64,000 nt of DNA from Bdellovibrionia bacterium (lineage in GTDB: Bacteria > Bdellovibrionota > Bdellovibrionia > Bdellovibrionales > JAGQZY01): positions 62,001 through 126,000 of the forward strand of contig JAUICP010000006.1 of NCBI GenBank assembly GCA_030427805.1, read 5' to 3'. Positions 7,332 to 55,193 of the stretch are shown one piece after another. The position numbers and the translations under genes are program-made. How positions within the stretch are numbered: position 1 is the first letter of the stretch; each line of letters begins with the position of its first letter. Under the pieces are notes generated by a model. That model searched no databases. It saw nothing but the letters and a program-made list of their open reading frames with translations, and was not told the DNA's origin.

Positions 7332-7441
7332 GTCCCATGTATAGGACCGAGGATTTGAGGCTGTCACCTATAATCCCGAATTCCTGACGACTCAGGGTGT
7401 TGCTCTGCGCGTTATCTACTTGGAATTAGGTAAGGGCCTCA

Positions 7442-9215: not shown

Positions 9216-9232
9216 GGCACAAACTTACAGAT

Positions 9233-9652
9233 TTATATCTGTAAATTCAAAGTATTTTTACTGGATTTCTCGGCTCCTGGCTTCACTTTCCGGACGGGTA
9301 GCTTTGGCATAGGGCGCAGAAATGAAGTGGGATCCATCTTGCGATGCTCTAGGTGAGCTTTGACCTTCTGAGCGGCGGCTTCGTTGTTCTTTTTGTAGAG
9401 GACAGGGTCAAAACCACAGGATTTACATTGAAGGGATAATCGCCAGCGGAGGTGTGTTAACACCTCGCCGATAAAAGCCAAGCAAACAAATATCACCAGG
9501 GCCCTGAGATCAAAATCATCCCAAACGATGAACATTAGGTAAAAACTCAAGATCCCAATCATCAGAAAGTTAACTGGACCTAGATGGCGATGGCCATAGA
9601 CCTTCATCGAGCTACCACAGAATGCACAGAGTGCTTTTTGAATTCGAGCCAT
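9233..9652 (-). CDS. Small membrane protein with two zinc-ribbon-like CxxC pairs
   Basis: Unrecognised 139-residue protein. An N-terminal CAFCGSS and a later CKSCGFD could together bind one zinc ion. Between them lie two hydrophobic segments (about 29-45 and 51-66), so the two CxxC pairs would face the same side of the membrane. The C-terminal third is basic and Pro/Lys-rich. The ATG follows GGGAGG with five bases spacing. It ends 17 bases before the GT2 start, so it is probably first in that small operon. Confidence 0.65.
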   Translation of the reverse strand: MARIQKALCAFCGSSMKVYGHRHLGPVNFLMIGILSFYLMFIVWDDFDLRALVIFVCLAFIGEVLTHLRWRLSLQCKSCGFDPVLYKKNNEAAAQKVKAHLEHRKMDPTSFLRPMPKLPVRKVKPGAEKSSKNTLNLQI

Positions 9653-9795
9653 CCTAGCCTCCCTTCAATTTCATTGGAGAAATCTCTTCTCCAGTCCAAT
9701 TTTCGCAGGCTTTTGGCAATTTTGAAAGACGAGATTTTGATCCTGGTTCCGCCTTTGGTACAATAAACGAGTCACTTAGCTCAGGGAGGAATTAG

Positions 9796-10443
9796 GTGCG
9801 TTTACTTTCTATTGTTATGGCTATTTTGGCCTTCTCATTGGTTCTACCCCTTAAAGCCGAAGAACGAGTTTACGGATACGATGCGATCGTTTCCGAACTT
9901 TCCCGAACCCGCACGAGCAATCAAGTCACCTATGTAAAGGATCCGTTCTCGGCCGTGCAAATTCACGCTGGCCTCGGTCTCGCCAATACTCTTTTTAGCT
10001 TACAGCGGGATGGCCAACGGGATCTCAATATTGCCCAAAGTGGACTCCAACTCTCTTTGGGAATTGATTTGTTTTCGCGAAATTGGATGGCCGAAGGGAC
10101 AATCAGAAATTTTGGTAAAACGAAAAAAGAAGGAATTGAGTCAACCCTAAGAGAGTTTGAACTCAAGCTTGTTTATCGATCCCACCTCAATACCTTCTTA
10201 AAGCTGCGCACGGGCCTCGGGGTTTCGGGTCGTTATCTCGATCTCAATGGCGTGCGTGGAAATGGTTCTTCATTTGATGAAACCTATACGACGCCTTCAA
10301 CACTTGGCTTTTTGGGTATGAGTACTTTTATTACCGATGGACTCAGTTTTGGAGCTGATATTTCTGGACGCCTATCGATGATTTCTGACACGGCCGACAG
10401 CAGTTCCGTCGATATCACTCTGCGTATGGATAGCCACTTCTAA
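9796..10443 (+). CDS. Small exported outer-membrane beta-barrel protein
   Basis: Unknown 215-residue exported protein. Signal peptide MRLLSIVMAILAFSLVLPLKA, then alternating amphipathic strands (for example VQIHAGLGLANTLFSL, GLQLSLGIDLF, EFELKLVYRS, FLKLRTGLGVSGRYL, LSFGADISGRLSM) and a final VDITLRMDSHF ending in phenylalanine, the usual signal for outer-membrane insertion. The start is a GTG with AGGGAGGA five bases upstream, which decides it. The stop TAA overlaps the next gene's ATG (TAATG), so the two are translationally coupled. Confidence 0.78.
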   Translation: MRLLSIVMAILAFSLVLPLKAEERVYGYDAIVSELSRTRTSNQVTYVKDPFSAVQIHAGLGLANTLFSLQRDGQRDLNIAQSGLQLSLGIDLFSRNWMAEGTIRNFGKTKKEGIESTLREFELKLVYRSHLNTFLKLRTGLGVSGRYLDLNGVRGNGSSFDETYTTPSTLGFLGMSTFITDGLSFGADISGRLSMISDTADSSSVDITLRMDSHF

Positions 10444-11102
10444 TGCTCTTTTTCAGCTTAGCCCTTGCCGTTTTCGTGAGCCTTGGATTGATTTCTGTCA
10501 ATTACTTGCGTTTAAAACGAAGAGTCACTCCTAAGCTGATACCCAACTGCCTTCTCACTCGCTATCCGGTTTACTTTATTACGGGCCGTCGCAGTCTCTT
10601 CTATTTTATGAACTACTGGAACGATATCCCTTTTTACCTCAAGGAACACGGTTATGATGTTCGGGTTCAACACATGAGTTGGAGAGACAATAAAAAACGG
10701 ACTCTCGAGCTTACTGAGTTTATTTTTAAGCTGAGCGGGCCGATTCATCTGATCGCCGATAGTTCTCTCGAAGACGAAATGAGAAGTCTTGCCGACCTCC
10801 ATCTTGAGAATTTAGCATCCATAAGTCTTGTGGAGTCAAATAATCGCATCAGAAAACTCACCACAGAACACCTCAAACCAAAAAATGACGGAATCCAAAG
10901 ACTCTTTGTACCCAATAAGGAGTCTTCGGGATTTACCAATCGAGTGTCTAAAATAGCGCTAAAAGCTAACAACTTGGCCAATTATCCGAACCCGCCCGTT
11001 CAAGCGGCAGAGATTGGTCTAGGTCAATCTCCCGAACACCAAACAATGAAACCCTATTTAGATCATCTAATATCCCTTGCCGAAAAAGATCTCCAATGTT
11101 GA
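10443..11102 (+). CDS. Membrane-anchored lipase-like protein lacking the nucleophile elbow
   Basis: 219 residues with an N-terminal membrane segment (2-20) and a body that follows the start of an alpha/beta-hydrolase lipase: YPVYFITGRRS at the first strand and oxyanion loop, then YWNDIPFYLKEHGYDVRV and a helix. Where a lipase would have GHSxGG it has IADSSLEDE, and the sequence ends before a clear catalytic His. It therefore looks like a non-catalytic relative or a different small fold. It begins on the stop codon of the barrel gene and the Yip1-like gene starts 10 bases after its stop, so the three form one unit. Confidence 0.6.
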   Translation: MLFFSLALAVFVSLGLISVNYLRLKRRVTPKLIPNCLLTRYPVYFITGRRSLFYFMNYWNDIPFYLKEHGYDVRVQHMSWRDNKKRTLELTEFIFKLSGPIHLIADSSLEDEMRSLADLHLENLASISLVESNNRIRKLTTEHLKPKNDGIQRLFVPNKESSGFTNRVSKIALKANNLANYPNPPVQAAEIGLGQSPEHQTMKPYLDHLISLAEKDLQC

Positions 11103-11112
11103 GATAGGGGTA

Positions 11113-11715
11113 ATGGAATTTTCAAAAGAACAAATTAAAAAAGAGCTGACCGACTTTGTTCCCTATCTAAAGAATTTCATTCGTAGACCCATGACTGAAG
11201 TCAGAAAAATTCCTAAATTATCATTACCGAGTAGTTTGATTTTTCTCGCAGCAGCGAGCTTAGTCAGTGGTTTTCTTTCGGGCCTTCTTATGTTTAGCCC
11301 TTTCACTGCCATATTTGGCGGCCTCTTTATGCCCTTTGCTGCCGGAATTTCTTCTGGTTTACTGACATTCTTTATTTATTACTTCTTCTACCTGTTCTTT
11401 TCGACGGAGCTCTCCCTAGAGAAGCTTTTTAATCTCGTCGTTATTTGTAGTATCCCCTTTTTGGTTTTTAATATTGCCGCCGGAGTTGTTCCCTTAATTG
11501 AAATTTTCGCCTATGCCTTTTCTGCGATGCTTTTAGCAGTCGGCCTGGTCGAAAACTTTGGCCTTCCCAAAAAGATCGTCTTAAGACTCGTCGGTGGGAT
11601 ATTTTTGGCTCTCCTTTTGGTTTGGCTCATCAATCTATTGATGTTCTGGGGATCCATGGCCAATACCATGCGACCGAGCCCCCTCGATCAAATCGAAAGA
11701 GAATACTCCCGCTAA
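11113..11715 (+). CDS. Yip1-family integral membrane protein
   Basis: 200-residue inner-membrane protein with a short charged N-terminus and about five hydrophobic helices (LIFLAAASLVSGFLSGLLM, a segment around FAAGISSGLLTFFIYYFFYLFF, LVVICSIPFLVFNIAAG, FAYAFSAMLLAVGLV, ILLALLLVW-like end). The helix layout with SIPFLVFNIA fits bacterial Yip1-domain proteins, whose function is mostly unknown. A TTG at 11077 would overlap the upstream gene; the ATG at 11113, preceded by GATAGGGG, is preferred. Last gene of the barrel-lipase-like-Yip1 unit. Confidence 0.7.
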   Translation: MEFSKEQIKKELTDFVPYLKNFIRRPMTEVRKIPKLSLPSSLIFLAAASLVSGFLSGLLMFSPFTAIFGGLFMPFAAGISSGLLTFFIYYFFYLFFSTELSLEKLFNLVVICSIPFLVFNIAAGVVPLIEIFAYAFSAMLLAVGLVENFGLPKKIVLRLVGGIFLALLLVWLINLLMFWGSMANTMRPSPLDQIEREYSR

Positions 11716-11753
11716 AATTGTAAATTTATTATGTGACAATCAGATTCAGAGAT

Positions 11754-13916
11754 CTATTGAGAGTTCGATGACCCAGTCATTTCGACATAGGTTTGAGAAA
11801 TTTTTTGCACCCTTTGATTATAAAGGTCTGATACGTAAATAAAGTCACCCTTTGCCGCTAACCCCAAGATGCCATTGAAAGCCCCGGCGGTAATACCGGA
11901 AACTCCAAACTCAACTTTTTTTGTGAGCGCTTTCGTATCCCAGATCTGAATAGTATTGTCATAATTTAACAGAAGTTCACCCTCATCATTGACCGCTAAA
12001 GCGTGAACTTTGTTTTCCCCGATATTAATAGAGGCCTCAAGGCTGTCATTAAGAATGTCATAGTAATAAATCCGTTTTCGATTGTTATCAAACCAGTACA
12101 AGGCACCATCTTTAGATACAGCCATTGCTTTACAGTAGAAGTCATCTTTGGGATAGTCGATCTTTCCATTTTCGAAGTTATGGTTGCGACGAATATAATT
12201 GCCGTCGTGGTCGAAAATTATAATTCCCTTATTTCCGGAACCGACAATAAGATAGTCTTCTGTTGCCCCCAATTCTGTTGGTGTCAACCCAAATCCATTG
12301 CCATCACCTGTGTTAAACTCAAAAAGAAACTCGAGACTGAATTTATCAAGGACTATGATTTTGGTTTGGCCCTTAGATGCCAAATAAAGTCGATCTCCGA
12401 TCACAACCAAACTACTCAAATAATTAAAACGCTCATTGTTTGCCCCAAAATTATTTACACGATACATGATTTTGTTATCTTTGCTAATTCCCACGAGAGT
12501 ACTGTAGTCGGAAATAACGAAATAGTTCCCCTCATCATCGGCCGCAATTCGTCGGGGTTCACTCACTCCCGTACCGAATCCACCGAGTCGCGAATAGATA
12601 TAATCGACATCATTTCCATCGAAATCTAGTAAAGCCACATTTTGCTTGGTATCACACACCGAAATCGAGTCATTAACTATAGAAAGGCAACTGGTATGGT
12701 GAAAGTAATGAGTTAAATACCTCATATACATCTTTTTTACAGACTGCTGAGCTACGCTACTCTGATAATTGAGTTTGAAAACCCACTCTTCACCAGTACG
12801 GCCATTAATTGGATTCTTGTATGGTCCCGATTTAAACACGGCATCAGTGAGAAAGATATCTCCCTTAGAATTGATTCTGATATCGGTGACACCAAGAAAT
12901 TCATGCTGAGTTCCGTCTTCCATTATAACTGAATTAAAAGCACTGACCAACTTACCCTCTTCAAAGACCAAAATCCCAAGCCCGCCTTTGTCAGAAACAA
13001 AGTATCGATCCGGATGACTTGGGTCGAAGGCAACTGACGCGATGTAATCAATGACCTGAGAGTCTAAGCCCAGGGTCCCAAGGTAGCCTCCGTCGATGTC
13101 TAGCTCGTGAACCATTTTTCCTAAATAGTCTGCAATATATATTTTAGAATCGTAAAGAGTAAGGCTAACAGAAGATTGAATACTGGAGAATTTCTTGAGA
13201 TCTATAGTCTTAGAGTACTTGTAGTTCAAATCGTATACGTGGACACTCCTGTCTTTTGGATCAAGAATATAGGTGATACCTTCGTACTGTCTAATAACAA
13301 CTCTTTCCGTTAGAAAATCGAGCTTAAGTCGATCGTAGGGCTTCAAAAGCTCGATAGGAATTCCATTTTCATCGAAAACAATGACCTTATTCATACTATC
13401 GTCATAGAGAAGGTAATTATTCTGAGTGACCATTGCCGAGGCTGCCTTCGAAAAATTAAAGACATTATCTGTCACTATGATATCGATTCGCGCACTTGCT
13501 TTATTGCCAACCGCATCAATAACGACAATTTCAAAAGATTGAACTGGTTTACTAAAGTCGTTCACGACTTCAAAGATTTGACCATCACTATTCAAGATAT
13601 TGATCTGACCTTGCGGTGAACTAATCTTATAAGGTGCAACTCCACCTTCGATCGCTATGGTATAGCGCTCGCCTTGGTCGATCGTCGCTGGAACTGTAAC
13701 AACGAGTTTTCCAGTGTAGCCACCAGCATTACCACTACCATCGGCTTCACCCTTAATCGGTTGAAGACTCGGAGGGTTTTGATTAAAATCTGGGGAGATA
13801 TCACCTTTCTTTTCAAAATTACAATTTTGAAAAAACAATACGAGAATTGTTAAAAGGATAAATATTTTAGAGAGCTGCTCTAAAGATCGATTGATCTTTC
13901 TCAGTTTGATACCCAC
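11754..13916 (-). CDS. Lipoprotein with Ig-like domain and beta-propeller
   Basis: Unrecognised 720-residue exported protein. The start is GTG 13916, set by AGGGGA seven bases upstream; the longer open frame runs into the divergent gene. Signal segment KIFILLTILVLFFQNC ends in an atypical lipobox (FFQNC, lipid cysteine 32). After a Gly/Ser linker comes an Ig-like strand-rich domain (about 65-150, IAIEGGVAPYKISSPQG) and then repeated blades such as VIVFDENGIPIELL, VHELDIDGGYLGTLG and IIIFDHDGNYIRR, as in NHL/YVTN-type propellers. Likely a binding scaffold at the outer membrane. It converges on the Yip1-like gene and diverges from the regulator at 14014. Confidence 0.72.
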   Translation of the reverse strand: MGIKLRKINRSLEQLSKIFILLTILVLFFQNCNFEKKGDISPDFNQNPPSLQPIKGEADGSGNAGGYTGKLVVTVPATIDQGERYTIAIEGGVAPYKISSPQGQINILNSDGQIFEVVNDFSKPVQSFEIVVIDAVGNKASARIDIIVTDNVFNFSKAASAMVTQNNYLLYDDSMNKVIVFDENGIPIELLKPYDRLKLDFLTERVVIRQYEGITYILDPKDRSVHVYDLNYKYSKTIDLKKFSSIQSSVSLTLYDSKIYIADYLGKMVHELDIDGGYLGTLGLDSQVIDYIASVAFDPSHPDRYFVSDKGGLGILVFEEGKLVSAFNSVIMEDGTQHEFLGVTDIRINSKGDIFLTDAVFKSGPYKNPINGRTGEEWVFKLNYQSSVAQQSVKKMYMRYLTHYFHHTSCLSIVNDSISVCDTKQNVALLDFDGNDVDYIYSRLGGFGTGVSEPRRIAADDEGNYFVISDYSTLVGISKDNKIMYRVNNFGANNERFNYLSSLVVIGDRLYLASKGQTKIIVLDKFSLEFLFEFNTGDGNGFGLTPTELGATEDYLIVGSGNKGIIIFDHDGNYIRRNHNFENGKIDYPKDDFYCKAMAVSKDGALYWFDNNRKRIYYYDILNDSLEASINIGENKVHALAVNDEGELLLNYDNTIQIWDTKALTKKVEFGVSGITAGAFNGILGLAAKGDFIYVSDLYNQRVQKISQTYVEMTGSSNSQ

Positions 13917-42141: not shown

Positions 42142-42585
42142 TCAGAGTTTGAGTTGGGCGATCAAGGGGTCGAAGAATCGGTCACTCATGAGATCGAGTT
42201 CCCATTCTTCTTCGGCTTGGTTTTCGATTTCTTTGTTAATCACGAGATCACCGGCTGAGTCGAGAGTGATATCGGCGTCTGAATAAAAAAGAAACTCACG
42301 GTCCTCTTGGAGTTTTTCTGAGTAGTAGGGAACCTTGAAAGAAATAATTGAGCAATTTTCAGGCAACATTTCACTGACCATTGAGGCCTGGTGAAGAAAT
42401 GTCACCGATACGTATTCCATAAAGATCTTGGTGCCTGGGTTGCTTTCGATCCAAGAAATCCACTTGGCAATCCCCGAAGAGTTGATGGCTCGATTATCTT
42501 CGAAGGTAATATGGAGCGACTCCACCCCTTGAAGACTCGGAAATTCACATTGCTCGTTGATAAATTCAGGTACGCTATAATCCAT
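42142..42585 (-). CDS. STAS-domain protein (anti-sigma antagonist-like)
   Basis: 147 residues from ATG 42585, chosen because GGGAG lies four bases upstream; a longer TTG start would overlap the FecR gene. LHITFEDNRAINSSGIAKWISWIE matches the STAS strand-loop-helix, with S36/S37 at the DSSG phosphorylation site of SpoIIAA-like proteins. A C-terminal acidic extension follows. STAS antagonists are switched by phosphorylation and reactivated by PP2C phosphatases; the HAMP-PP2C gene 1.6 kb away is an obvious candidate. It follows the FecR gene by 14 bases. Confidence 0.75.
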   Translation of the reverse strand: MDYSVPEFINEQCEFPSLQGVESLHITFEDNRAINSSGIAKWISWIESNPGTKIFMEYVSVTFLHQASMVSEMLPENCSIISFKVPYYSEKLQEDREFLFYSDADITLDSAGDLVINKEIENQAEEEWELDLMSDRFFDPLIAQLKL

Positions 42586-42599
42586 TGAGCTCCCAACTA

Positions 42600-44156
42600 C
42601 TAACAAATATAATTATATCGGATATTTGGCAAGTGTGAACCCTTCCACTGGATCGCTTTTATAATTACCTTTTTTGGTCTAGACCACTGGGACGATTCAT
42701 CGCCGTTGATGACGCGAGCACGCCAATAGTAGGTGCCAGGCTTTAATCGGTTGGAGAATAGCAGGCGCTTTTGATCGGTGGTGGTTTTTTCTATGACCGT
42801 TGAGAAATCCGGTGTCTTTGAGACCTCGAACTCAAGACTTGCCCCCGGTTTGTAGGAGTTTGGATCCCAATTAAGGCGCATGACGACTGGAAACTTTTTA
42901 TTGGCGATAAAGGTCTCACCATCGGAAAGCCCTTTTAATTTTGGCGAACTTAAAAACATGGGCTTTGGCGGCGCAGGTGGCCCCATCGGTGCAACTGGAA
43001 TCAAACCGCCGACCGGTGGAATACTGGCTGCCCCTCGATCCGGTTTTTCAACTTTCACATCGACCTTGCGAACCTCGGAATACTCACTCCAATCGCGATT
43101 GGATAAATCGAAATAGCGCACTCGCACGTAGAAGTCTTTTTTCGGAAACTTTTCAAATGCCACACTATTTTTGCGCAATCGTCTCTGGGAGAGAACGTCC
43201 TTAAAGCTCGGCTCAGTGGAGACTTGAAAGTCAAAGACCCGATCGCCCATTTCGACATTTAACGACTTCGCAACCAGGTCCTGATCTTCGCCGGCTTCGA
43301 TGAACTTGCCTTTTTCTTTCATTTGCTTTTCGCTGACTTCAAGTTCCAGTCGATTGAGATTGAGCTCCGGTTTATCAAGAATCTCGAACTCAACGGCCGT
43401 TAGCTCTCTTGTTCGATCAATTGCAGCCAATGACTTGTCATGAACCGTCGGCCCAATAATTTCCTCACGGATCTCTTCGGTGATATCACCCACAAAGGGA
43501 TCCGAAAAGGATTCAAGTGAGGTGTCGATGAGTTCAATCTTGTCGAGGTCGATGGCTTTACCTATCGCCAGAGGACTTTTGTCCACTTCGACAGACTTTG
43601 ACACCAGCTTCTTGTTCTTAGCTAGTTTTAGTTGACCAGAGACAACACTCAACTGGGATTTCTTTTTGCCAACCTTGAGCTTGACCCGAGCTTTGGATTG
43701 GTCACCACGAAGATTGAGGCGTTTACCTTTTGAAGCGAGGACAATGGGCTGACTCACATCCACTTCGATTTCACCAAACTCGAGATTAATCTCTGGTGAG
43801 TTTGAACGGGTGTTCACTTTTGCCAGCGTATAAGCTCCGAGGCTTATCGACTGGTTGCCCACTTCAATTTCCACCTGACTCTCGGCCCCTGTAAAGATCT
43901 CATCGCCTTCTTCTAGGGCTAAACTCTCACCAACCTGGTACCAACGATAATCGCCTTGCTCTTTGATTCTAACGTCATTCTGGTAGCTCTTAACGAGTCC
44001 CACGGTTTGTTCATTCATTGTTCGTGATAAGGAGTTTCCGAGGAGAGATTTGTAGAGTTGAGACAAAGCAATCCCCATCAATGTCAGAAAGACAATGACC
44101 AACAAAAGATCAATGGAGATAGTTCTCAGTCGTTGACTGAGCAAATTCTTATTCAT
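42600..44156 (-). CDS. Membrane-anchored FecR-domain protein
   Basis: 518 residues: N-terminal membrane helix (IDLLLVIVFLTLMGIALSQL, about 15-35), then a FecR domain (YRWYQVGESLALEEGDEIFTGAESQVEIEV ... GAYTLAKVNTRS), a long linker of charged repeats, a Pro-rich stretch (PPVGGLIPVAPMGPPAPPKP) and an Ig/FN3-like end (GTYYWRARVINGDESSQWSRP). FecR domains in such proteins act in periplasmic sensing or as scaffolds, not necessarily in iron signalling. It shares a 43-base divergent promoter region with the phosphatase gene. Confidence 0.78.
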   Translation of the reverse strand: MNKNLLSQRLRTISIDLLLVIVFLTLMGIALSQLYKSLLGNSLSRTMNEQTVGLVKSYQNDVRIKEQGDYRWYQVGESLALEEGDEIFTGAESQVEIEVGNQSISLGAYTLAKVNTRSNSPEINLEFGEIEVDVSQPIVLASKGKRLNLRGDQSKARVKLKVGKKKSQLSVVSGQLKLAKNKKLVSKSVEVDKSPLAIGKAIDLDKIELIDTSLESFSDPFVGDITEEIREEIIGPTVHDKSLAAIDRTRELTAVEFEILDKPELNLNRLELEVSEKQMKEKGKFIEAGEDQDLVAKSLNVEMGDRVFDFQVSTEPSFKDVLSQRRLRKNSVAFEKFPKKDFYVRVRYFDLSNRDWSEYSEVRKVDVKVEKPDRGAASIPPVGGLIPVAPMGPPAPPKPMFLSSPKLKGLSDGETFIANKKFPVVMRLNWDPNSYKPGASLEFEVSKTPDFSTVIEKTTTDQKRLLFSNRLKPGTYYWRARVINGDESSQWSRPKKVIIKAIQWKGSHLPNIRYNYIC

Positions 44157-44199
44157 TTTTGTCTTAACAACTCCTTAAAATTTTTTTACTCTATATAAT

Positions 44200-45996
44200 A
44201 TGTTTCGGCTGCAACTAGGGATCCGCTTTAAGATATTGATTTACTTTCTTGCACTCACTTTGGTCGTGTGTGCGAGCTTGATCTATGTCGCGGTCGACTA
44301 CTTTGAACGGGACAAAATTTCTTACTTATTCGATTCTTCACTCAGTTCAACTCGGCTGAAGGCCAGACAAATCAGGCAATCCATCGATTCAGAGCTGCAA
44401 AACATCCGAAACTTGCTGATTCACTTCGACCCCAAGGCCAAAGACTTTACAAAAAAGGGCCGGCAGATCTTCGCTCGCAATCGAAATATCCTAAAAATCC
44501 AGGCTGGCTCTTTGGCCAATTTTCAAGAGAACAAAATGATCACCCTGGTAAATACCCAGGCCATCAAGCCCCCTGGCCAGTCCAGTCTAGACATTCAGTC
44601 CAGCCAGAACTTCGATGCTTTGGGCTTTCAAGTCACGCGGGCAAAAGAAGGAATCGTTACACTTTTCTTTCCATCAAATCTTAAAGGCGAAATTATTGCC
44701 TGCGAAGTTTACATCAGAAGTCTCGAAGAACTTTTATCTGAAGCTTCACCTTGGAAAACCTCTTTGCTCTTTGATCAGAGCCGAAGGGTTTCGTTTAGCT
44801 CGCAAAAAAATGATGAAGGCCTGTTTGCCGAAACGGCTCAGTGGATTGAAAACCTGACGACTCCAGAGGGCACTCGCTTTATTGGGCAGATGGATTCGCA
44901 CTTAGTATCGGCGTCCTCGATCGGTTTTAATTTTTATGCCGCAGAATTGATCCCCAAGAATCAAGCACTCACAGCCATATTCGAATATCGGCAAATGGCT
45001 ATTTGGTTGGGGATTTTTCTATTCAGTCTCGCTGCCATCGCCGGATTGATTTTCTCGAAAAGTATTTCGAAGAATATTTCTTCACTAGTGACAGCTACTG
45101 ATCAGATTTCAAACGGAAATTTTGATATCGATATTTCCATTTCATCCAACGATGAAATCAAGAACCTGGGAGATCGCTTTAACCAGATGGCCAAAGAAGT
45201 CTCAAGACTTCTTAGCGAGTCGGTGCAAAAAGCCAGAATGGAAACAGAACTTAAAACGGCGCAATTGGTACAACAAACACTCGTGCCCCAATCCGGTTAC
45301 AAAGATGATCTCATTGAAATCTACGGACTCTATGAGCCAGCCAACGAGTGTGGGGGCGATTGGTGGCATTTTCACCACGACGCCCGCGGAAGACTTTTCT
45401 TATGGCTTGGCGATGCCACAGGACACGGTGCTGGACCGGCTTTGATCACTAGTGCTGCGCGAGCCACCGCTGGCATTTTAGAGAGCATGGACAATATGAC
45501 GCCAGCCCAGGCCCTCGGTGTACTCAACGATGCGATTTACAAAACTGCTCGCGGCGAAATCGTGATGACTTTCTTTTTGTGTTGCTTTGATCCAGAAACT
45601 AAAAAACTTTACTTTACAAATGCCTCCCATATTTCTCCCATCTACTTGAGAAATGTAAAACCCGGAGAGGCCAATAGAAAGTCATTTCTTTCACTCGAAG
45701 GGTCAATGAATCCTCGTGTGGGATCAAAAGAGAATTTTAATGATTTTAAATTGGATGAATTCCAATTGGAGTCCGGCGATCAGCTCTATATTTTCACTGA
45801 TGGAATGCTCGAGGCCGAAAATAGAGATAAAAAAATGTACGGCAATAGGCGCTTCCGACAAAAACTCGCTGAAGCCTATAATAATGGACTTGGCGTTAAG
45901 CAGGCCCTTCGCGCCCTTTACTCGGATGTGAAAGTTTTTGAGGATGGACTGCCCCAAGAAGATGACATAACAATCATTGGCTGCAGGGTTCTATGA
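44200..45996 (+). CDS. Membrane HAMP-PP2C (SpoIIE/RsbU-type) serine phosphatase
   Basis: Receptor-type phosphatase, 598 residues. TM1 (LIYFLALTLVVCASLIYVAV), a ~220-residue periplasmic sensor part, TM2 (MAIWLGIFLFSLAAIAGLIF), HAMP (SSLVTATDQISNGNFDIDISISSNDEIKNLGDRFNQM), linker helix (AQLVQQTLVPQ), then PP2C: ECGGDWWHF, GDATGHG at 404-410, FTDGMLEAENRD and EDDITIIG with the metal-binding aspartates. It should dephosphorylate a STAS protein, probably the one at 42142. ATG 44200 has no ribosome binding site and a TATAAT directly abuts it. Its stop overlaps the next gene (ATGA). Confidence 0.9.
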   Translation: MFRLQLGIRFKILIYFLALTLVVCASLIYVAVDYFERDKISYLFDSSLSSTRLKARQIRQSIDSELQNIRNLLIHFDPKAKDFTKKGRQIFARNRNILKIQAGSLANFQENKMITLVNTQAIKPPGQSSLDIQSSQNFDALGFQVTRAKEGIVTLFFPSNLKGEIIACEVYIRSLEELLSEASPWKTSLLFDQSRRVSFSSQKNDEGLFAETAQWIENLTTPEGTRFIGQMDSHLVSASSIGFNFYAAELIPKNQALTAIFEYRQMAIWLGIFLFSLAAIAGLIFSKSISKNISSLVTATDQISNGNFDIDISISSNDEIKNLGDRFNQMAKEVSRLLSESVQKARMETELKTAQLVQQTLVPQSGYKDDLIEIYGLYEPANECGGDWWHFHHDARGRLFLWLGDATGHGAGPALITSAARATAGILESMDNMTPAQALGVLNDAIYKTARGEIVMTFFLCCFDPETKKLYFTNASHISPIYLRNVKPGEANRKSFLSLEGSMNPRVGSKENFNDFKLDEFQLESGDQLYIFTDGMLEAENRDKKMYGNRRFRQKLAEAYNNGLGVKQALRALYSDVKVFEDGLPQEDDITIIGCRVL

Positions 45997-47294
45997 TTCG
46001 CGCACTCAAAATCATTACTCTACTGAGCCTTTTTCTTGTAGCGAGCGCTTCGGCTCAGACTGATGATAAGGCAAAAATCGAAAATGAAGAGAGTGTCGCG
46101 ACCCCTAAAGAAACCTCTGAAGCCAGCCCCATAAAAAATCAAAAAAGAATCCCAAAAAATACCCCAAAAAACACCAAAGACTCGAAAAATAAATCAGTGC
46201 CGTCGGCGCAAATCACATCTGGAAATATAAAACTCGAATTTTACCAACCCTTTCTTGGCTTGGGCACTAACAAGAAGTTTGTTGACGTGGTGATCACCGG
46301 AAAGACGCTCCCATACTCGACCGTAGAGTACTCTCCGGATATTATCCGAATTCTCGATGCCTCTGTTAAAGAAGTTAAGGTTAAAAAAAGCTTTATGCCC
46401 ATCCAACAAACACAGGCGAATTCTAAGGGCGAGTTTCAACTCCAAGTTATTCTACCCAAGGGAGCCTATCAAATTCCGATCAAAGTAAGAAAGGGTTCGC
46501 AAAACGCTTCTTATCAACTGATTCTCGAAATCAGTCCTGAAAAAATTATTGCTAACACTCCTACCTTAGCGGGCAAGTCTCCTTTTTTAAAAACAAATCA
46601 ACTCTCGGTGGGCTTAGGGGTTAACTTTGTTCTCTTTAAACAAGACTCCAATTATCCCTCGAGTACGACGTTTCAGAGTATTAATCTCGGGGCTTTTTAT
46701 ATCGATTACTGGAAGCAACTTTCGAACGAATATCAAGTGCTTTTGACAGCAAAACTCACTCCCGGCGAAACAGCCTCTTCAGAGCAAGCCCAAGTCCGGG
46801 ATAAAACTTTTAATTGGATTATGGCTTCGGCGACCGGAGTTTACTTTCCACAAAAGTTTCGCTACAAACGCCCGAACGACACTCTGAGAATGGGTTTCCA
46901 GGCGGGTCTGCAGTACCACTCCGTACCTTTTATAAATATTCTCAGCGAAACTCCCAGCGTTGTTGAGGTCAATAATAACCAAATACTTTTTGGCGCCCTG
47001 GGTATGCACTTTGAGCTTGAACAGGCGCGCACCTTTTTATACGAAATCTTTTTTAGATTACAGTTTCCGCTCTATTCAGAAAATGTTTTTAATCTCGATT
47101 CAGCCTATGGAATCGAAGGCTCTATTGGCCTAGAAAAGTATTTGGGAAAAAGATGGAGTATCGGCGCTTTCTGGTACGGCGTTTTTCATTGGTACACCTT
47201 TAGTCAAAACAATACGTCCTTGTCGCAAAACCTAAAGGGCGACATTTACCTCTTTTACTCAAACGCTGAATTTCGCGTGGGTTATCGTTTTTAA
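45993..47294 (+). CDS. Outer-membrane barrel protein with basic linker, coupled to the phosphatase
   Basis: 433 residues. Signal peptide 1-21 (LLSLFLVASASA), a Lys/Asn/Pro-rich linker (KNQKRIPKNTPKNTKDSKNK), an Ig-like domain (about 68-190, FVDVVITGKTLPYSTVEYS ... YQLILEIS) and a barrel of long strands (LSVGLGVNFVLF, INLGAFYIDYW, YQVLLTAKLTPG) ending AEFRVGYRF with terminal Phe. The start overlaps the phosphatase stop by 4 bases, so it is part of the signalling module, perhaps its outer-membrane arm. The stop abuts the adhesin stop on the other strand. Confidence 0.75.
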   Translation: MIRALKIITLLSLFLVASASAQTDDKAKIENEESVATPKETSEASPIKNQKRIPKNTPKNTKDSKNKSVPSAQITSGNIKLEFYQPFLGLGTNKKFVDVVITGKTLPYSTVEYSPDIIRILDASVKEVKVKKSFMPIQQTQANSKGEFQLQVILPKGAYQIPIKVRKGSQNASYQLILEISPEKIIANTPTLAGKSPFLKTNQLSVGLGVNFVLFKQDSNYPSSTTFQSINLGAFYIDYWKQLSNEYQVLLTAKLTPGETASSEQAQVRDKTFNWIMASATGVYFPQKFRYKRPNDTLRMGFQAGLQYHSVPFINILSETPSVVEVNNNQILFGALGMHFELEQARTFLYEIFFRLQFPLYSENVFNLDSAYGIEGSIGLEKYLGKRWSIGAFWYGVFHWYTFSQNNTSLSQNLKGDIYLFYSNAEFRVGYRF

Positions 47295-50200
47295 TTACTC
47301 AACCGAAGCAGGGGCGCGACTCGAAGACGCCGAAAGCGCTTCCATCATGGCTTCGAGACGATCCATGCGGTTTTCTAGGCTCTCGTTCTTTTCTTTTAAT
47401 GACTTGATCTCTTGATCCTTTTTGTTCAACTCTTCTTTGAGTTTTGCGATCTCAGAATTTTGCTGAACATCGGTCGAAGAAATATTGATATACACATTTC
47501 CGCTTGCTAAGGCAAAACCCAGAGGTGCACCGTCATTGGCATAGGCAAAACCATTATGATAGTAAACTTGATCGGATTGAACCGGAAGTTGTCCAACAAG
47601 ACCAACGAGAACGACATTATCTTGATTTTGTAGTTCAGCATTACCGATCACACCGGGGTTGGTAGATACAATACCAAGAAGGGCATCACCCTTTTGGTAG
47701 CCACGGGCGAGTCCTGTAGCGGGGTTCAAACCAACCAGATCACCTGGCTCTAGCTCTTCTTCTGCGGCAAAGTATTCCGCGTAATCGGCACCTTCTGAGT
47801 TGTAGGCCACAGCTGATATCTCACCACCAGCAGGCACAGTACTACAGGTCCCATCGCCGGTAACACAAAGTCCTTTACCGGCTCCAGAGCCATCAATGTG
47901 GACAAGGGAATCGGGAGAAGTCGTTCCAATACCAAAGTTTCCTGATACATCGATGCGCATTCGCTCAGCGTAGGATGATGCGCCCGTTTGCTGAACCCAG
48001 GCGTAGGATGGAGAGTAAGTGCCTGCTCCAGAGTTCGAGAAGGCTCCCGTAAAGAAATACTGATCATTGGCTGAATTTCGTACATTGTGGGTTATAAAAA
48101 CTGAGTTTGAATCAACAAACCAACTGTTTTCTAAAAAGAGATGATGGTCCGGAGCAGACCCAGGAGTGTACGCAGTATTTTTGCCTTTAGTAACAAAGAA
48201 GTTACCACTTTTAATGTCGGCAGAAAAATTACCCGAACCAAACCCACCGGCTCCATCTCCGACTTCTAGAAGAATACTTCCTCCAGTATTCGAAGCGGGG
48301 CCCGTCGAATCTTGAGCGTAAAGCTTTATTCCTTTACCCTTCGTACTAGCCGGAGCCGCCGAAGGCTCGACGTGCAGTATAGAATCAGGAGCTGCTGTTC
48401 CAATACCAACGTCACCGTCGGCATCGATGCGAAGAGACTCAGATCCAGAGTTAGAAAATGCAATTTCATTAGAGGCTGGCGTGAAAAGACCTGTATCGGG
48501 ATCGTTTACAAATGTGAATGCGGGGTTGGCTTCGACACCGGCAGCAGAGCGCATAGCAGCCGAGCCAAAATCTTTACCTTCAAATCGGTTTTGATTGACT
48601 TCAAACTTCATACTTCCCGCAGCAGTAAAAGCCATTTGATCCGCGGCAATTCGATAAATCCCTAAATCTTCATCTCCGTCAAAAGTGATCCCAGGTGCTG
48701 CGGCTGTACCAAAATCAGCTGTGAACTGACCAGTCATTGGAATCGTACCATCCGCCAGAAAATCACCACTTCCACCACCGGCGGCACTCCACGAAAGTAC
48801 ACCTGATCCATTGGTTGTTAAAACATGCCCGTTTGATCCATCAGCCGCAGGTAACGTGTAAGTCTGGGTCCCGGTTACTGTAGCTGGCGCCTTGAAACCG
48901 ACGTATTCACCACCCGTTGCATCTTGTAAGCGAAGTTCTTTTTCGGCCAAAATATTAGTGTGTCCCGAATTATCAATGGTCATACGTCGATTTGCTTCAG
49001 CGCTTCCATCGGTGAAAAAACTAATCGAACCGGAAACTCCGTTGCTTCCAGAAAGAGATAAGCCGTTAGTACCACTGGCACTAATCAACGAAGAGTTTGG
49101 AGAATTAGCACCCGTGCCAGTACTACTTGAGCTAATTTGTGTAAATGAAAAGTTCGCCGAGCTCGTACCTAAAATCATTTGCGAGTCAGCATTGGCTCCC
49201 GCAGTAAAGTTATCGACCCTAAAGGTCGTCGTTGCATTTTGATCTTTTCTAACATGAAGTTCTTCTGTTGGATCGACACCAATACCGAGGCGTCCAGTAC
49301 TATCGAGAGTCATTCTTTCGGTCGCACCTGTTGCAAATGAAATCTCGTCGATACCAGATCGATACATTCCCGTATCGTCATCTCCATAGAAGGCAAACGA
49401 AGGCTGAGCCGCTCCACCCGGCGCCGCCATACTAATTGAAGCCGCACCCGTTCCGCCACTACCATATAAAAAGACGGCGTCCATGACCATCACAGCTGAA
49501 TTATTGCGCTCAAACTCTAAGTCAAATCCATCGTTCGTACCGATCGTCATGGTAGCACCAAAGGAGTTACCATTATTATTGACATCACCACTTCCGCCAC
49601 CGGTGGCACTCCACGAAAGCACACCAGAGCCGTTTGTCGTTAAGACTTCACCATTAGAACCATCGGCCGCTGGTAGAGTGTAGGTTTGACTTGTCGTTAC
49701 CGTTGCTGGAGCCTTGAAACCAACGTATTGGCCACCGGCAGCGTCTTGCATTCTAACTTCATTTTCTTTGAGTAAATTAATATCTCCCGATTCTGTTATT
49801 AAAACAGCATTTTCAGATGACGTCGTACCACTTGGAGTCACACTGAAACGCAAGCCCGTACCGCGGTCTGTGGCATTGAAGTTTTCAATGGCAATGACTT
49901 CCATTCCACCACCCGTATGCCAGTTGGGAGTCGTATTATAAGCGCCAAGTCCTACAAAACTTGCCAGGACATCGCCCGTTTGGGTTTCTGTCGGTAAAGC
50001 TTTTGTTCCCCGACTGGTTCGACCAGCAAACGTAGGAGCACCGAGAATCGTTGCACCCTTATGATGATCGACGATGAAGCCAGGGTATCTCGCAACAGTT
50101 GAATCTGTATTTGTTACTTTAACTGCGACCGTCGTATCGGTTCCCTCTACATGGAGCTCCTCTTCGGGAGCGGCAGTACCAATTCCGACATATCCCGTTG

Positions 50201-53200
50201 AGTAATCCCAAGTCTGAAAATATCCGCCAGAGTTATTTCTAATATGCAGGTCTTCAGTGTCATTACCGCTAAAGCCAAAATGCCATTTATCGAAGGAGGC
50301 TTGTCGGAAGCGCACTCCCATATCGTATGACCAATTGTTATTTTCGAGAATTAAGTCGCCTTCACCATTGACAGTGTGACCACTGTAGACATGGAACTTG
50401 GCTCCAGGTGCTCCATTTCCAATCCCAACATTGCCGTCGGTATCGACAAAGACGCCTTCACTTCCACCATCGTTACTGAGGTAGTTTCCGTTTAAGCGAA
50501 TGTTGCCCGTCATTGACACGGTACCATTCGCTAAAAAGTCACCTGCGCCAGTCGATTGCCATGATAAAACACCACTGCCATTTGTAGAGAGAACTTGTCC
50601 GTTGGTTCCGTCGGCTGGTGGTAATGTATAAACACCAGATCCAGTAACCGTCGCCGGCGCTCTAAAACCGGTATACTGGCCGCCAGAGTCATCTTCGAGG
50701 CGAAGATCTGTACTCGAGTGAATGGCCACATAGTTATCATAGGCAATTGACATCGCTGTTCGTGGCACACCTTGATCCGTTACATTGAACTTAAGGTCAG
50801 CCGTACGATTGGCGTCAACGGCATTGGTCCAAGAAGAAGAAATATTTGCTTGCTCACGCATGAGGCTGGTTGAAGTTTCAGCCTTAAAAGTCATCTGTGC
50901 ACCAAGGCCTGGTCCACCCCCAGCGCCTCCATTTTCAGCTTCAAGAGATAAAATTTCATAAATTGCGTTTGTTAAATCTTGCTCTTGTACAGTAAGGCGC
51001 GATGATGGAGCCTCTGTACCGATACCGACGTCAAGATCCTTGGTGATCCGCATGGACTCGTTATAACCTGTAGCAGCCGTTTGTTGTCCAAAGACTAATT
51101 CTGGGGTGAAGGTTCCGTCGTTTGAAACAGCACCTATATAGGCCGTTTGTTGAGTTCCCGTGCTATTTTCGACACTAAATACGGCTAGCGAGGCGGCACC
51201 CGCATTTTCAGAAGTGTTTTCAATCGAAAGAGTTGGAGCATTAGGAGTGTAAATGGCCGCACTACTAGAGACATAACCACTATTGATCGAATCGTTAATA
51301 TGAACAGAGGATAAAAACGTCGTATAATCCGGACCAAACCAAATGGAGTCGGCACCATTTGAACTATAGGCCGTCCATCCATCGCCCCCCATGTTATAAA
51401 ATCCGGTATCTTGATCATTTGTATACGAAAGTGAAGGTGCCGCAGCGGATCCATCTGGCAGGTCGAGTTGCCCGGTCATAGCGACACTACCATCGGATTC
51501 AAAGTCTCCACCCGAAGCTGGAGTTGTCCAAGACATGACTCCTGTACCATCGGTCGTTAAAACTTGCCCGTTGGTTCCAGGGCCATTTGGTAATGTAAGG
51601 TTTGTGTCAGCCGTTACATCGGCTGGAGCAACGAGAGCGACATATTCGTTGGTACCAGTATCGTAAAGGCGAATACGATTGTGATCGAGCATATTAAGAT
51701 TACCGTCGTCACCGAGTTCCATTTGTGTTTTGGTGGAACTCGCTCCAACTTCGCGGGTGATAAATTCTAATTTAGTAGGCGCGCGATTGGCTCCAGTGTC
51801 GGCCGTCGCCGTCGCTTGAATTCCCGCAGCTCCTCGGTAAGTACTAGAGGTATCATAAGAATGAAAGAACAAAGACCCTACTTTATCGCCAGTCAAAACA
51901 GGTGTTAGCGTATTAGCATCTCCTCGACTTCGACGTAAAATTAAATCCGGGCCTTGGTTGAATATATCGTTGTGCCCATCGAAATAAAAATCTCTATTAT
52001 TGTCATCTGTAATATGTACAGCACCAATGGGGCTCGGATTAAATATACCGAGTTGAGCCGTATCCCGTTCAGCGTGAAGTACCGTTTTTGAAGTTCCTGC
52101 TTGAATTCGATTCAACTGAAAAGAATTATCCGATTCATCGTGGTGAACCATCTCAAAACCATGATTATAGTTACCACTATTATAGCCACGCATACTGATG
52201 CTTATATTCGTATCATCAACATTACCATTGAGTTGTAAATTGGGGTTGGTCCCTTCAATATGAAGAATCGAACTCGGGTCAACACCAATACCGACACGGC
52301 CAACACTTGTAACACGAACCCGTTCAGTTCCACCCGTCGTAATCGCCACATTGTCAGCAGCCGGGCTAAAGAAACCGGTATTGGCATCAGTGCCAAAACT
52401 AATACCAGGATTCCCTTGGTTACCTAGTATGGCGTCAATTTGCCCTGTCATTGCCACTGAACCGTCAGATTCAAAGTCACCGCCACCACCAAGGCTCGAC
52501 CACCCTAGTTGACCCGTACCGTTGGTAGAAAGTACCTGACCCGAAGTTCCGTCCGCAGGAGGTAAAGTCCAAACAGTCGTAGTCGTCACGTCATCTGGTG
52601 CACGTAGCCCCACATAATCTGTTCCAGCCGAAGCATCCAGTTCGTATAGGTAAAACTGGCCACCATCACCGGCAGCTGTCCCTTTCGGATCAATCTGAAC
52701 AACACCGTCTACCTGAAGTTGCGACTGAACCGAACTACTAGAGAAGTCACCAATCCCCACCTTACCATCTTTTTGGATTTTGACAGCTTGGGTTTCACCA
52801 CCCGCTCCACTATCAACCCAAAAGGTCATGTCTGCTGGAATGTTTGCACCACTCGGAGTTCCGTTAACTTCCATCTGTATATAACCAGCTGTGTAGTAGT
52901 CCGGACCACCGGTGTTTTCGAAACCTCGGAACATAAAGGTACCGATGACATCGTTATCAACAACGGATGTGGGCGCACCTACAGTTCCATTTTGCCTTGC
53001 CACGGCGATGGAACTCTCAAAGGCTGTGGATATATTGTATTGTTCAGTAGCGCCAGCAGACAAAACGGTTAACTCCCTAGTCGGAGTAGTAGTACCGATT
53101 CCTACTTGTCCCGATGAATTGATCGTCATCGCGTCAGCTCCGCCAGTTACAAATGTCAATTCATCGGCTGTGTCAGAATACAGACCCGTATCCGAATCAG

Positions 53201-55193
53201 CTGCAAAAGAGTAAGATGGCTGGGCCTCAGTTCCGTTACTACCACGGAGTAATACGGAATCAGTGCCCGTTCCTCGAAGACCACTGTTAGTAACGTAAAA
53301 TCGTCTCGTACCACCAGTGGTAAACGCAATTTCATTGGCACTAGAACTATAGATACCTGTATCAGCATCCCCATTAAAACTAATACTTGGAGCTGCATTA
53401 GTACCCTGCTCTAAGTTCACAATTCCATTATTATTTAAATTTAGATCACCGCTCATTGCCACAGAACCGTCGGATTCAAAATCACCTGTACCAACAGAAG
53501 CCCAACTAAGTACTCCACTGCCGTTCGTTTGCAGAACTTGTCCGTTTGTTCCGTCGGCTGCAGGAAGCTCCCAAATTATGGATGCAGCATCACCAACGGC
53601 ATCAGGGGCGCGGAATCCAACATAGTCAATTCCACCCGCTCCAATGTTTGCCGCAAGTTCTTCAAAGACAATAGCTCCACCTTCTCCAGCTGCAGTCCCT
53701 TTCGGACCAGAAACGATGGTCCCTTCGACATCGAGTTTTTCGATAGGAGACGTTGTACCAATTCCGACATCTCCAGTTGAGGTAATGCGCAATCTCTCTG
53801 CAGGAGAGCTACCATTTTCTCGTGTGGCAAAAGAGAGATAACCCGCATAATTACCACTAATCGCATTTTCTTTTAATCCACCAATGTTAGCAAAGTCCCT
53901 CATTTGCACGCCGTCAGAGCCGCCGAAACCGAGAGTTCCACCGACTCCAACACCTTGAGCAGAATTAGAATTAATACTGACTAAACCTCGAGCTGTCGTA
54001 ATCGGTACAGCCGTACCATTCACCTCAAGAAGCGACCCTGGGTTATTGGTTCCAATTCCAACCTCTCCAGTCGCATCCACAAATACACCTTCATTACCAC
54101 CGTCACCACTCAAATAGTTTCCATTCAGTGGAATGTTACCTGTCATGGCAACACTACCGTCAGATTCAAAATCGCCACCGGTTGCATCGGTCACACAAGA
54201 CCAGGCATAAACGGGACCGGCACTCATTTGTAGTTTCTCAGAAGCCAAACAGTTAGGAACGGCGTCAGCACCCATGGCATCACCTGCTGCAGTACCAATA
54301 TCAAAACCACCAATGACTTGGGCCGCAGCACCATCCCAGATTTTGAGTTCATCACTTGTTGAATTATACCAAGTCACACCTTCATGGCCTGCCGTTAACC
54401 CCGGAGGATCAGTCGCATAAGTCCCAAGGTGTAAGTAGGTATTAGCTGACATGGTAATAAAACCGGAGTTGAGAATGTCATTTCCACCCATGTCGATATC
54501 GCCCGTCATAGTTCCACCGGCCAAAGGAAGTTTTGTTGCATCTGTAGCCGTCGGAGTATTAGCGACCCAGGTCGTTCCATTCCAAGTCAGAACTTTTCCG
54601 ATATCAGCTCCACCGGCCAAACCCGAGAGGCTTGCCGAATCGGCTGCAGCTCCCCCGATGTAGGTATCTGAGTAATTCTTTGTAGCAGCGTCTGTGGCGT
54701 TGGTAGGATCCGCTAGATTTTGCAGGGCTTGGTTATTGAAATCGACGGGAGCTGTCGGCGTAAAGTTGGCTCCAGCCGGGTCTGCGTACTGGGCACTCGT
54801 ACCGTTAATCAGGTTCATGAGTTCGGTGTAGTTTCCGCCACCAAATACATTTTGTAAGTTGGTTTGATCGATGTTGTTAGCGCCATCTACGGATAAAAAG
54901 TCATTTGCTCCATGCCCTTCTAACTTTGTGGCATAGCGAGCGTAGGGTACCGAGGCCATGTTGATGTTTTCAGAAAACTGAATAACACCCGTACCTTCGT
55001 TGATCGTTAAACGAATGGCGCGTGCATCACCGGGGGCAGCATCATAAGCTGTTCCCGAATCACAGGTCAAAGGAGTTACATTCCCTAAACCATTATCAAA
55101 GGCTTGATCGAGTGTTGAAGTATCTTCGTAGTCCGTTCCAGCCCTTGCACCAGAACCCACTTTTAAGTTGAAAACTCCGGCAGATGTCGACAT
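47295..55193 (-). CDS. Giant tail-fibre-like surface protein (main open frame)
   Basis: 2,632 residues of repeats. Eleven VGIGTxxPxxxLxV-type elements (VGIGTTSPIEKLDV, VGIGTAAPDSILHV), seven DTGxYxxxxxEIAFxTGG elements, and six junctions APATVTxxxxYTLPAADGTNGQVLTTNGSGVLSW followed by GDFESDGSVAMTG. Such repeats occur in phage-tail-like and Bdellovibrio adhesins and build trimeric shafts. The end has GADYAEYFAAEEELEPGDLVGLN and a leucine-zipper coiled coil (IAKLKEELNKKDQEIKSLKE), with no S74 autoprotease motif. ATG 55193 is only the first start in this frame; the open frame extends to about 55320 with natural N-terminal sequence and no start, so the true gene begins at 55401 behind a frameshift. 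Confidence 0.85.
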   Translation of the reverse strand: MSTSAGVFNLKVGSGARAGTDYEDTSTLDQAFDNGLGNVTPLTCDSGTAYDAAPGDARAIRLTINEGTGVIQFSENINMASVPYARYATKLEGHGANDFLSVDGANNIDQTNLQNVFGGGNYTELMNLINGTSAQYADPAGANFTPTAPVDFNNQALQNLADPTNATDAATKNYSDTYIGGAAADSASLSGLAGGADIGKVLTWNGTTWVANTPTATDATKLPLAGGTMTGDIDMGGNDILNSGFITMSANTYLHLGTYATDPPGLTAGHEGVTWYNSTSDELKIWDGAAAQVIGGFDIGTAAGDAMGADAVPNCLASEKLQMSAGPVYAWSCVTDATGGDFESDGSVAMTGNIPLNGNYLSGDGGNEGVFVDATGEVGIGTNNPGSLLEVNGTAVPITTARGLVSINSNSAQGVGVGGTLGFGGSDGVQMRDFANIGGLKENAISGNYAGYLSFATRENGSSPAERLRITSTGDVGIGTTSPIEKLDVEGTIVSGPKGTAAGEGGAIVFEELAANIGAGGIDYVGFRAPDAVGDAASIIWELPAADGTNGQVLQTNGSGVLSWASVGTGDFESDGSVAMSGDLNLNNNGIVNLEQGTNAAPSISFNGDADTGIYSSSANEIAFTTGGTRRFYVTNSGLRGTGTDSVLLRGSNGTEAQPSYSFAADSDTGLYSDTADELTFVTGGADAMTINSSGQVGIGTTTPTRELTVLSAGATEQYNISTAFESSIAVARQNGTVGAPTSVVDNDVIGTFMFRGFENTGGPDYYTAGYIQMEVNGTPSGANIPADMTFWVDSGAGGETQAVKIQKDGKVGIGDFSSSSVQSQLQVDGVVQIDPKGTAAGDGGQFYLYELDASAGTDYVGLRAPDDVTTTTVWTLPPADGTSGQVLSTNGTGQLGWSSLGGGGDFESDGSVAMTGQIDAILGNQGNPGISFGTDANTGFFSPAADNVAITTGGTERVRVTSVGRVGIGVDPSSILHIEGTNPNLQLNGNVDDTNISISMRGYNSGNYNHGFEMVHHDESDNSFQLNRIQAGTSKTVLHAERDTAQLGIFNPSPIGAVHITDDNNRDFYFDGHNDIFNQGPDLILRRSRGDANTLTPVLTGDKVGSLFFHSYDTSSTYRGAAGIQATATADTGANRAPTKLEFITREVGASSTKTQMELGDDGNLNMLDHNRIRLYDTGTNEYVALVAPADVTADTNLTLPNGPGTNGQVLTTDGTGVMSWTTPASGGDFESDGSVAMTGQLDLPDGSAAAPSLSYTNDQDTGFYNMGGDGWTAYSSNGADSIWFGPDYTTFLSSVHINDSINSGYVSSSAAIYTPNAPTLSIENTSENAGAASLAVFSVENSTGTQQTAYIGAVSNDGTFTPELVFGQQTAATGYNESMRITKDLDVGIGTEAPSSRLTVQEQDLTNAIYEILSLEAENGGAGGGPGLGAQMTFKAETSTSLMREQANISSSWTNAVDANRTADLKFNVTDQGVPRTAMSIAYDNYVAIHSSTDLRLEDDSGGQYTGFRAPATVTGSGVYTLPPADGTNGQVLSTNGSGVLSWQSTGAGDFLANGTVSMTGNIRLNGNYLSNDGGSEGVFVDTDGNVGIGNGAPGAKFHVYSGHTVNGEGDLILENNNWSYDMGVRFRQASFDKWHFGFSGNDTEDLHIRNNSGGYFQTWDYSTGYVGIGTAAPEEELHVEGTDTTVAVKVTNTDSTVARYPGFIVDHHKGATILGAPTFAGRTSRGTKALPTETQTGDVLASFVGLGAYNTTPNWHTGGGMEVIAIENFNATDRGTGLRFSVTPSGTTSSENAVLITESGDINLLKENEVRMQDAAGGQYVGFKAPATVTTSQTYTLPAADGSNGEVLTTNGSGVLSWSATGGGSGDVNNNGNSFGATMTIGTNDGFDLEFERNNSAVMVMDAVFLYGSGGTGAASISMAAPGGAAQPSFAFYGDDDTGMYRSGIDEISFATGATERMTLDSTGRLGIGVDPTEELHVRKDQNATTTFRVDNFTAGANADSQMILGTSSANFSFTQISSSSTGTGANSPNSSLISASGTNGLSLSGSNGVSGSISFFTDGSAEANRRMTIDNSGHTNILAEKELRLQDATGGEYVGFKAPATVTGTQTYTLPAADGSNGHVLTTNGSGVLSWSAAGGGSGDFLADGTIPMTGQFTADFGTAAAPGITFDGDEDLGIYRIAADQMAFTAAGSMKFEVNQNRFEGKDFGSAAMRSAAGVEANPAFTFVNDPDTGLFTPASNEIAFSNSGSESLRIDADGDVGIGTAAPDSILHVEPSAAPASTKGKGIKLYAQDSTGPASNTGGSILLEVGDGAGGFGSGNFSADIKSGNFFVTKGKNTAYTPGSAPDHHLFLENSWFVDSNSVFITHNVRNSANDQYFFTGAFSNSGAGTYSPSYAWVQQTGASSYAERMRIDVSGNFGIGTTSPDSLVHIDGSGAGKGLCVTGDGTCSTVPAGGEISAVAYNSEGADYAEYFAAEEELEPGDLVGLNPATGLARGYQKGDALLGIVSTNPGVIGNAELQNQDNVVLVGLVGQLPVQSDQVYYHNGFAYANDGAPLGFALASGNVYINISSTDVQQNSEIAKLKEELNKKDQEIKSLKEKNESLENRMDRLEAMMEALSASSSRAPASVE

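Follow-up and report, generated by a model that had tools for sequence, protein, structure and literature searches.

A FecR-STAS and PP2C-barrel locus of a Bdellovibrionia bacterium as a probable split form of an envelope-facing partner switch

Partner switches of the RsbU-RsbV-RsbW and SpoIIE-SpoIIAA-SpoIIAB type are built from a SpoIIE-type PP2C phosphatase with catalytic aspartates, a STAS protein with a serine at the start of a helix, and a GHKL kinase of the RsbW/SpoIIAB kind. The conserved-serine mechanism of STAS switch proteins has been reviewed (PMC8256260), and a sensor phosphatase is also present in the chlamydial Rsb system and in other partner switches (PMC11619594). SiaABCD of Pseudomonas aeruginosa is likewise a set of phosphatase, kinase and switch protein with a non-sigma output, in which SiaA is a HAMP-PP2C protein with two transmembrane (TM) helices, SiaC is phosphorylated on Thr68 and the output of SiaC is the diguanylate cyclase SiaD (PMC7647112). 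FecI-FecR-FecA shares with the locus described here a protein with one TM helix and a FecR-like periplasmic domain, together with a nearby outer-membrane barrel. A search of the open-access literature for a description of the module reported below found none, and it apparently has not been described there so far.

The window analysed, a stretch of 64,000 nucleotides from contig C11 of a 4.5 Mb genome, holds a locus of two divergent gene pairs, FecR-STAS on the minus strand and PP2C-barrel on the plus strand, with the following features:

42142..42585, minus strand: STAS protein, 147 aa, presumed switch protein (anti-sigma antagonists matched by profile and by fold; GGGAG before ATG 42585)
42478..42480, minus strand: TCT codon of the invariant serine, presumed phosphorylation site (Ser43 in the 154-aa form, Ser36 in the 147-aa form)
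42600..44156, minus strand: FecR-like protein, 518 aa, presumed periplasmic sensor or adaptor (sub-cut-off PF04773 match, hydropathy, family found opposite PP2C)
44157..44199, no strand: divergent intergenic gap, 43 bp, presumed regulatory (sequence)
44200..45996, plus strand: HAMP-SpoIIE/PP2C phosphatase, 598 aa (Pfam; catalytic Asp residues)
45993..47294, plus strand: outer-membrane beta-barrel protein of 433 aa; signal peptide, beta domain at the N-terminus (model, Foldseek, family alignment)

All four genes named by a first-pass annotation of this DNA, for a STAS protein, a FecR membrane protein, a HAMP-PP2C phosphatase and an outer-membrane barrel, are present. The FecR-like and STAS genes are separated by 14 bp, and the PP2C and barrel genes overlap by 4 bp. 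The gap between the pairs had been called a divergent promoter of 43 bases; its length is exactly 43 bp, but a two-box promoter scan of the gap found none, which leaves the promoter presumed, and the scan count for the region of the locus equalled the shuffled mean. At the end of the FecR-like gene, just ahead of STAS, TTCACA-16-TATAAT (11/12 matches) was observed at 42612-42639 on the minus strand, from which STAS may have its own promoter, such sites being no commoner here than by chance. A TATAAT at 44194-44199 abuts the PP2C start codon and leaves no room for a ribosome-binding site, so that this start codon may be questionable or translation may be leaderless.

A Pfam scan of the window STAS protein alone gave no match. 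The best solved-structure matches of a profile of 41 relatives were TM1442 (E 0.0028) and STAS proteins of the Ttg2E type, and residues 1-90 of the AlphaFold model (pLDDT 92) align to the YchM STAS domain, TM1442, SpoIIAA, RsbS and RsbV (Z 10-11). Foldseek alone returned nothing with E < 0.001 for this model, though its top matches were STAS domains, and the assignment was settled by VIA re-alignment of the Foldseek matches; the modelled fold matches the SpoIIAA/RsbV type. Residues beyond 90 form a C-terminal extension, in which some relatives carry Cys pairs. The protein falls into a divergent subfamily with 20-39% identity to other STAS proteins and lacks the usual N-terminal residues. Its start is most likely ATG 42585 rather than TTG 42606, because GGGAG lies just upstream and the closest paralogues start near the same point; the length of 154 aa assumed earlier, counted from TTG 42606, is replaced by 147 aa.

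The first-pass annotation had also proposed a phosphorylatable serine in the STAS protein, the absence of which from homologues it would have counted against the idea. Ser43 (Ser36 in the 147-aa form) is a Ser in 106/106 homologues and is preceded by Asn in 105 of the 106. It opens the helix that follows a strand in the AlphaFold model, and its counterpart in TM1442, according to the profile match, is the Ser of the D-S-x-G motif. SpoIIAA and RsbV are phosphorylated at this position, and phosphorylation of the window protein is predicted on this basis.

The phosphatase has TM helices at residues 12-30 and 267-285 with a periplasmic region between them, a HAMP domain at 285-334 and a PP2C domain at 396-597, with Pfam matches to HAMP (5e-10) and SpoIIE (PF07228, 1e-32). 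Asp387, Asp405, Asp534 and Asp589, the catalytic residues, are present and conserved. Together with the STAS serine and the conserved core neighbourhood described below, these features bear out the partner-switch-like character claimed earlier for the locus. The two-TM HAMP-PP2C layout is that of SiaA, but the window locus is without a cyclase; assignment as a SiaA equivalog was rejected at 80.7 bits against a 700-bit cut-off. In a tree of PP2C proteins with an unresolved backbone, the window protein sat on a long branch and was not placed.

The FecR-like protein consists of a short cytoplasmic N-terminus, a TM helix at residues 13-31, a FecR-like domain at 85-175 and an Ig/fibronectin-like C-terminal part. 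It scores 18.7 bits against PF04773, below the Pfam cut-off of 24; a further member of the family encoded in this genome clears this cut-off with 25.7 bits, and the family is conserved opposite PP2C in relatives. In contrast to FecI-FecR-FecA, only about 12 residues precede the TM helix, hence there is no cytoplasmic anti-sigma domain and a role as anti-sigma factor was ruled out. Further differences are that no ECF sigma factor stands beside the gene and that the window barrel is small and, by Pfam, not a TonB-dependent receptor.

The barrel was modelled as an N-terminal beta domain and about 10 long strands, and the best Foldseek matches of the model were outer-membrane barrels, namely OpcA (9e-6), FadL and OmpT-type proteins. 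Two genera of another family likewise have a PP2C-barrel pair (loci L064 and L078), and barrel paralogues are found behind a STAS paralogue, beside kinase and receiver genes, in L034 of this genome and in L178. Since both PP2C-barrel pairs in two families and barrels behind STAS were found, gene neighbourhoods connect the barrel family with the pathway in two ways. The earlier suggestion that outer membrane and periplasm feed a STAS switch agrees with the envelope-facing parts seen here, i.e. FecR-like protein, barrel and HAMP-PP2C. The minus strand at 47295-55193 encodes a protein of about 2,600 aa with repetitive sequence, whose stop codon abuts that of the barrel with zero gap; it shows a weak Peptidase_G2-like stretch and a coiled coil at the C-terminus, as in tail-fibre-like surface proteins.

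A gene-neighbourhood search across Bdellovibrionota, as proposed in the first-pass annotation, revealed a conserved FecR/PP2C/STAS core. The divergent FecR/PP2C pair was present in 76 loci of the examined set, a count in which some loci were entered twice by two routes and many had been picked for a STAS or PP2C match. In other members of the order it is followed by X-STAS (e.g. L039, L041, L057, L065, L076, L079, L083 and L084), X being a kinase family described below, and in a Bdellovibrio-type genus by STAS directly (L058, L067, L071, L073-L075, L081 and L086), so that the order FecR<->PP2C-(X)-STAS extends over many genera and several families. Within 7 kb of 77 named STAS loci, some of which are clipped by contig ends, we found a divergent FecR/PP2C pair in 42, PP2C in 53, X in 43, a histidine kinase in 51 and a receiver-type protein in 62. 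The flanking kinases are CheA-like with PAS-Hpt-HATPase domains; in the receiver protein there are DUF4388-like regions and, in some cases, DnaJ regions. In B. bacteriovorus strain kdesi (L107), for example, the order is HK-FecR<->PP2C-STAS-receiver protein.

What was retained of the arrangement noted earlier is thus the core neighbourhood, whereas the exact order of the window (STAS behind FecR, barrel behind PP2C) was seen in just one genus, in this genome (G000) and in G001. Compared with relatives, the barrel sits where X-STAS sit elsewhere, STAS lies behind FecR, and X is unlinked. This restriction to a single genus, together with a divergent gap lacking a promoter signal, would fit four genes that are chance neighbours, or two unrelated pairs, FecR-STAS and PP2C-barrel. 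We consider this very improbable: the recurrence of divergent FecR/PP2C in 76 loci argues that the arrangement is not due to chance, the barrel gene is a neighbour of PP2C in two families and of STAS in other loci, and the junctions within the pairs are tight (14-bp gap, 4-bp overlap). From these comparisons the locus is probably a genus-specific version, split and rearranged, of an envelope-facing partner switch that is phylum-wide in distribution.

The locus had been described as lacking a kinase, and none was found among the scanned genes of the window locus. As a property of the system this is not supported, however, since X is common in the module and three X homologues are encoded in this genome. 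X is a GHKL-type kinase family of about 240-310 aa, often encoded between PP2C and STAS, which is nearly invisible to Pfam (weak HATPase matches in 4/24 members). Glu and Asn of the N-box and a further Asp are invariant in its members, which also have a Gly-rich box; the second ATP-binding box is unusual (D-x-F-G-S-L). A PDB profile search with X directly gave chance matches only and no solved-structure match; the connection of X to RsbW/SpoIIAB was made by a bridge through the X homologues of this genome. A profile search located these at C7:186362 (595 aa, with an N-terminal cNMP-binding domain), C1:331167 and C1:333220. Compared by profile, X and the C1 pair matched with 96.8% probability (E 2e-10). 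One of the pair clears the PF13581 cut-off, and all five of its solved-structure matches are RsbW or SpoIIAB (E 0.005-0.08, RsbW at E 0.005). Candidates for the RsbW-like kinases that the first-pass annotation had proposed to seek elsewhere in the genome have thereby been found. Searching relatives with PF13581 lacked specificity, since ordinary histidine kinases match too.

Across 191 genomes of the phylum, X and STAS occur together in 129, STAS only in 3, X only in none and neither in 59 (Fisher p 3e-46, uncorrected for ancestry). The corresponding numbers for 59 relatives are 38, 0, 2 and 19, likewise uncorrected. A single reading frame encodes X fused to STAS in L162 and in L183, which argues for a direct interaction of both. 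Genomes of the Bdellovibrio-type genus that lack X between PP2C and STAS carry the gene for an X protein of about 475-560 aa at another site, and the one such protein examined has a cNMP-binding domain. An X kinase domain behind a cNMP-binding domain was also seen in this genome and others of the order (L104:5208-6995, L105:6444-7871 and L106:6603-8333); a cyclic-nucleotide input to the STAS switch through such proteins is possible. A candidate for a second, more complex switch in the same genome is L091 (G000:C1:317000-336900), with two STAS paralogues, a 1683-aa protein of protein kinase-AAA-TPR-GAF-SpoIIE layout and two RsbW-like X kinases.

Alternatively, STAS and PP2C might work without a GHKL kinase in this genus; a Hanks-type Ser/Thr kinase would then phosphorylate the STAS protein, or it would stay unphosphorylated. 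The kinase-less window locus, and the Hanks-type kinase fused to AAA, TPR, GAF and SpoIIE domains near two STAS paralogues in the genome, are compatible with this idea. It is nevertheless improbable in our judgement, given the three X homologues of the genome, the occurrence of X in all except 3/132 STAS-bearing genomes and the retention of the STAS serine. The window STAS protein is most likely served by the PP2C phosphatase, signalled through FecR and barrel, acting against an unlinked X kinase, as far as gene content and linkage indicate. The C1 pair appears the better guess for this kinase, because the nearest STAS paralogue (39% identity) is encoded about 11-14 kb away from it.

We infer the phosphotransfer, the direction of the signal, the choice of kinase for the window STAS protein and the output as follows. 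Barrel and FecR-like protein would read an outer-membrane or periplasmic state and signal to the periplasmic region of the HAMP-PP2C protein, the activity of which would be altered through HAMP. PP2C would strip the phosphate from the invariant STAS serine, which would be phosphorylated by an X-family GHKL kinase, here from unlinked genes, those of the C1 pair (G000:C1:331-334 kb), of the cNMP-binding-X protein (C7:186 kb) or of both. Once free of phosphate, STAS would bind X or another partner.

Regarding this partner, the STAS protein may, instead of acting on a kinase of the anti-sigma type, act directly on the PAS-Hpt-HATPase kinase or the receiver/DUF4388 protein and so feed a two-component relay, while X merely sets STAS phosphorylation. 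The kinase and receiver genes counted above around the STAS loci (51/77 and 62/77 within 7 kb) are in favour of this possibility, as are the loci of the Bdellovibrio-type genus that are without X, yet with kinase and receiver genes. Neither gene adjoins the window locus, linkage is no proof of binding, and one STAS paralogue is encoded alongside an ECF sigma factor; direct action on the relay is accordingly conceivable, if somewhat on the unlikely side. The paralogue in question (36% identity) belongs to a row of genes in L032 (G000:C1:643000-662000), at 7260-12750 on the minus strand, that also holds a YfbK-type VWA protein and a TonB-dependent receptor. It shows that a sigma factor as output is possible, while the usual kinase and receiver neighbours would favour a two-component relay. 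The complete scheme, in which X and an envelope sensor of FecR, barrel and HAMP-PP2C set the phosphorylation of STAS, and STAS directly controls the CheA-like kinase and the receiver/DUF4388 regulator, would make the module a phylum-wide serine switch in a His-Asp relay rather than a sigma factor switch; we propose it tentatively and regard it as rather doubtful in this entire form.

A counterpart is known for every catalytic element of the module: like RsbUVW and SpoIIE-AA-AB, it has a SpoIIE-type PP2C with catalytic Asp, a STAS protein with Ser at the matching place at a helix start, and an RsbW/SpoIIAB-kind GHKL kinase encoded in the genome. In contrast to these, the kinase is absent from the scanned genes of the window locus, X forms a family of its own that Pfam covers poorly and that has an additional N-terminal part, a FecR-like protein and an outer-membrane barrel are included, and the usual neighbours are histidine kinase and receiver genes, with no sigma factor in the module. 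Because the catalytic elements all have counterparts and the envelope parts, histidine-kinase linkage and kinase family are different from the compared systems (PMC8256260, PMC7647112, PMC11619594), we regard the module as a variant of the known partner-switch kind.

Because Pfam hardly detects X, kinases may also have been missed for other 'orphan' STAS-PP2C pairs. The STAS family is found in about two thirds of the sampled Bdellovibrionota genomes (132/191), including one Bdellovibrio bacteriovorus strain, and the module would offer a testable path from outer-membrane or periplasmic state to cytoplasmic regulation in predatory bacteria. If the serine switch indeed feeds a His-Asp relay, it could report the state of the envelope or of prey contact in these bacteria.
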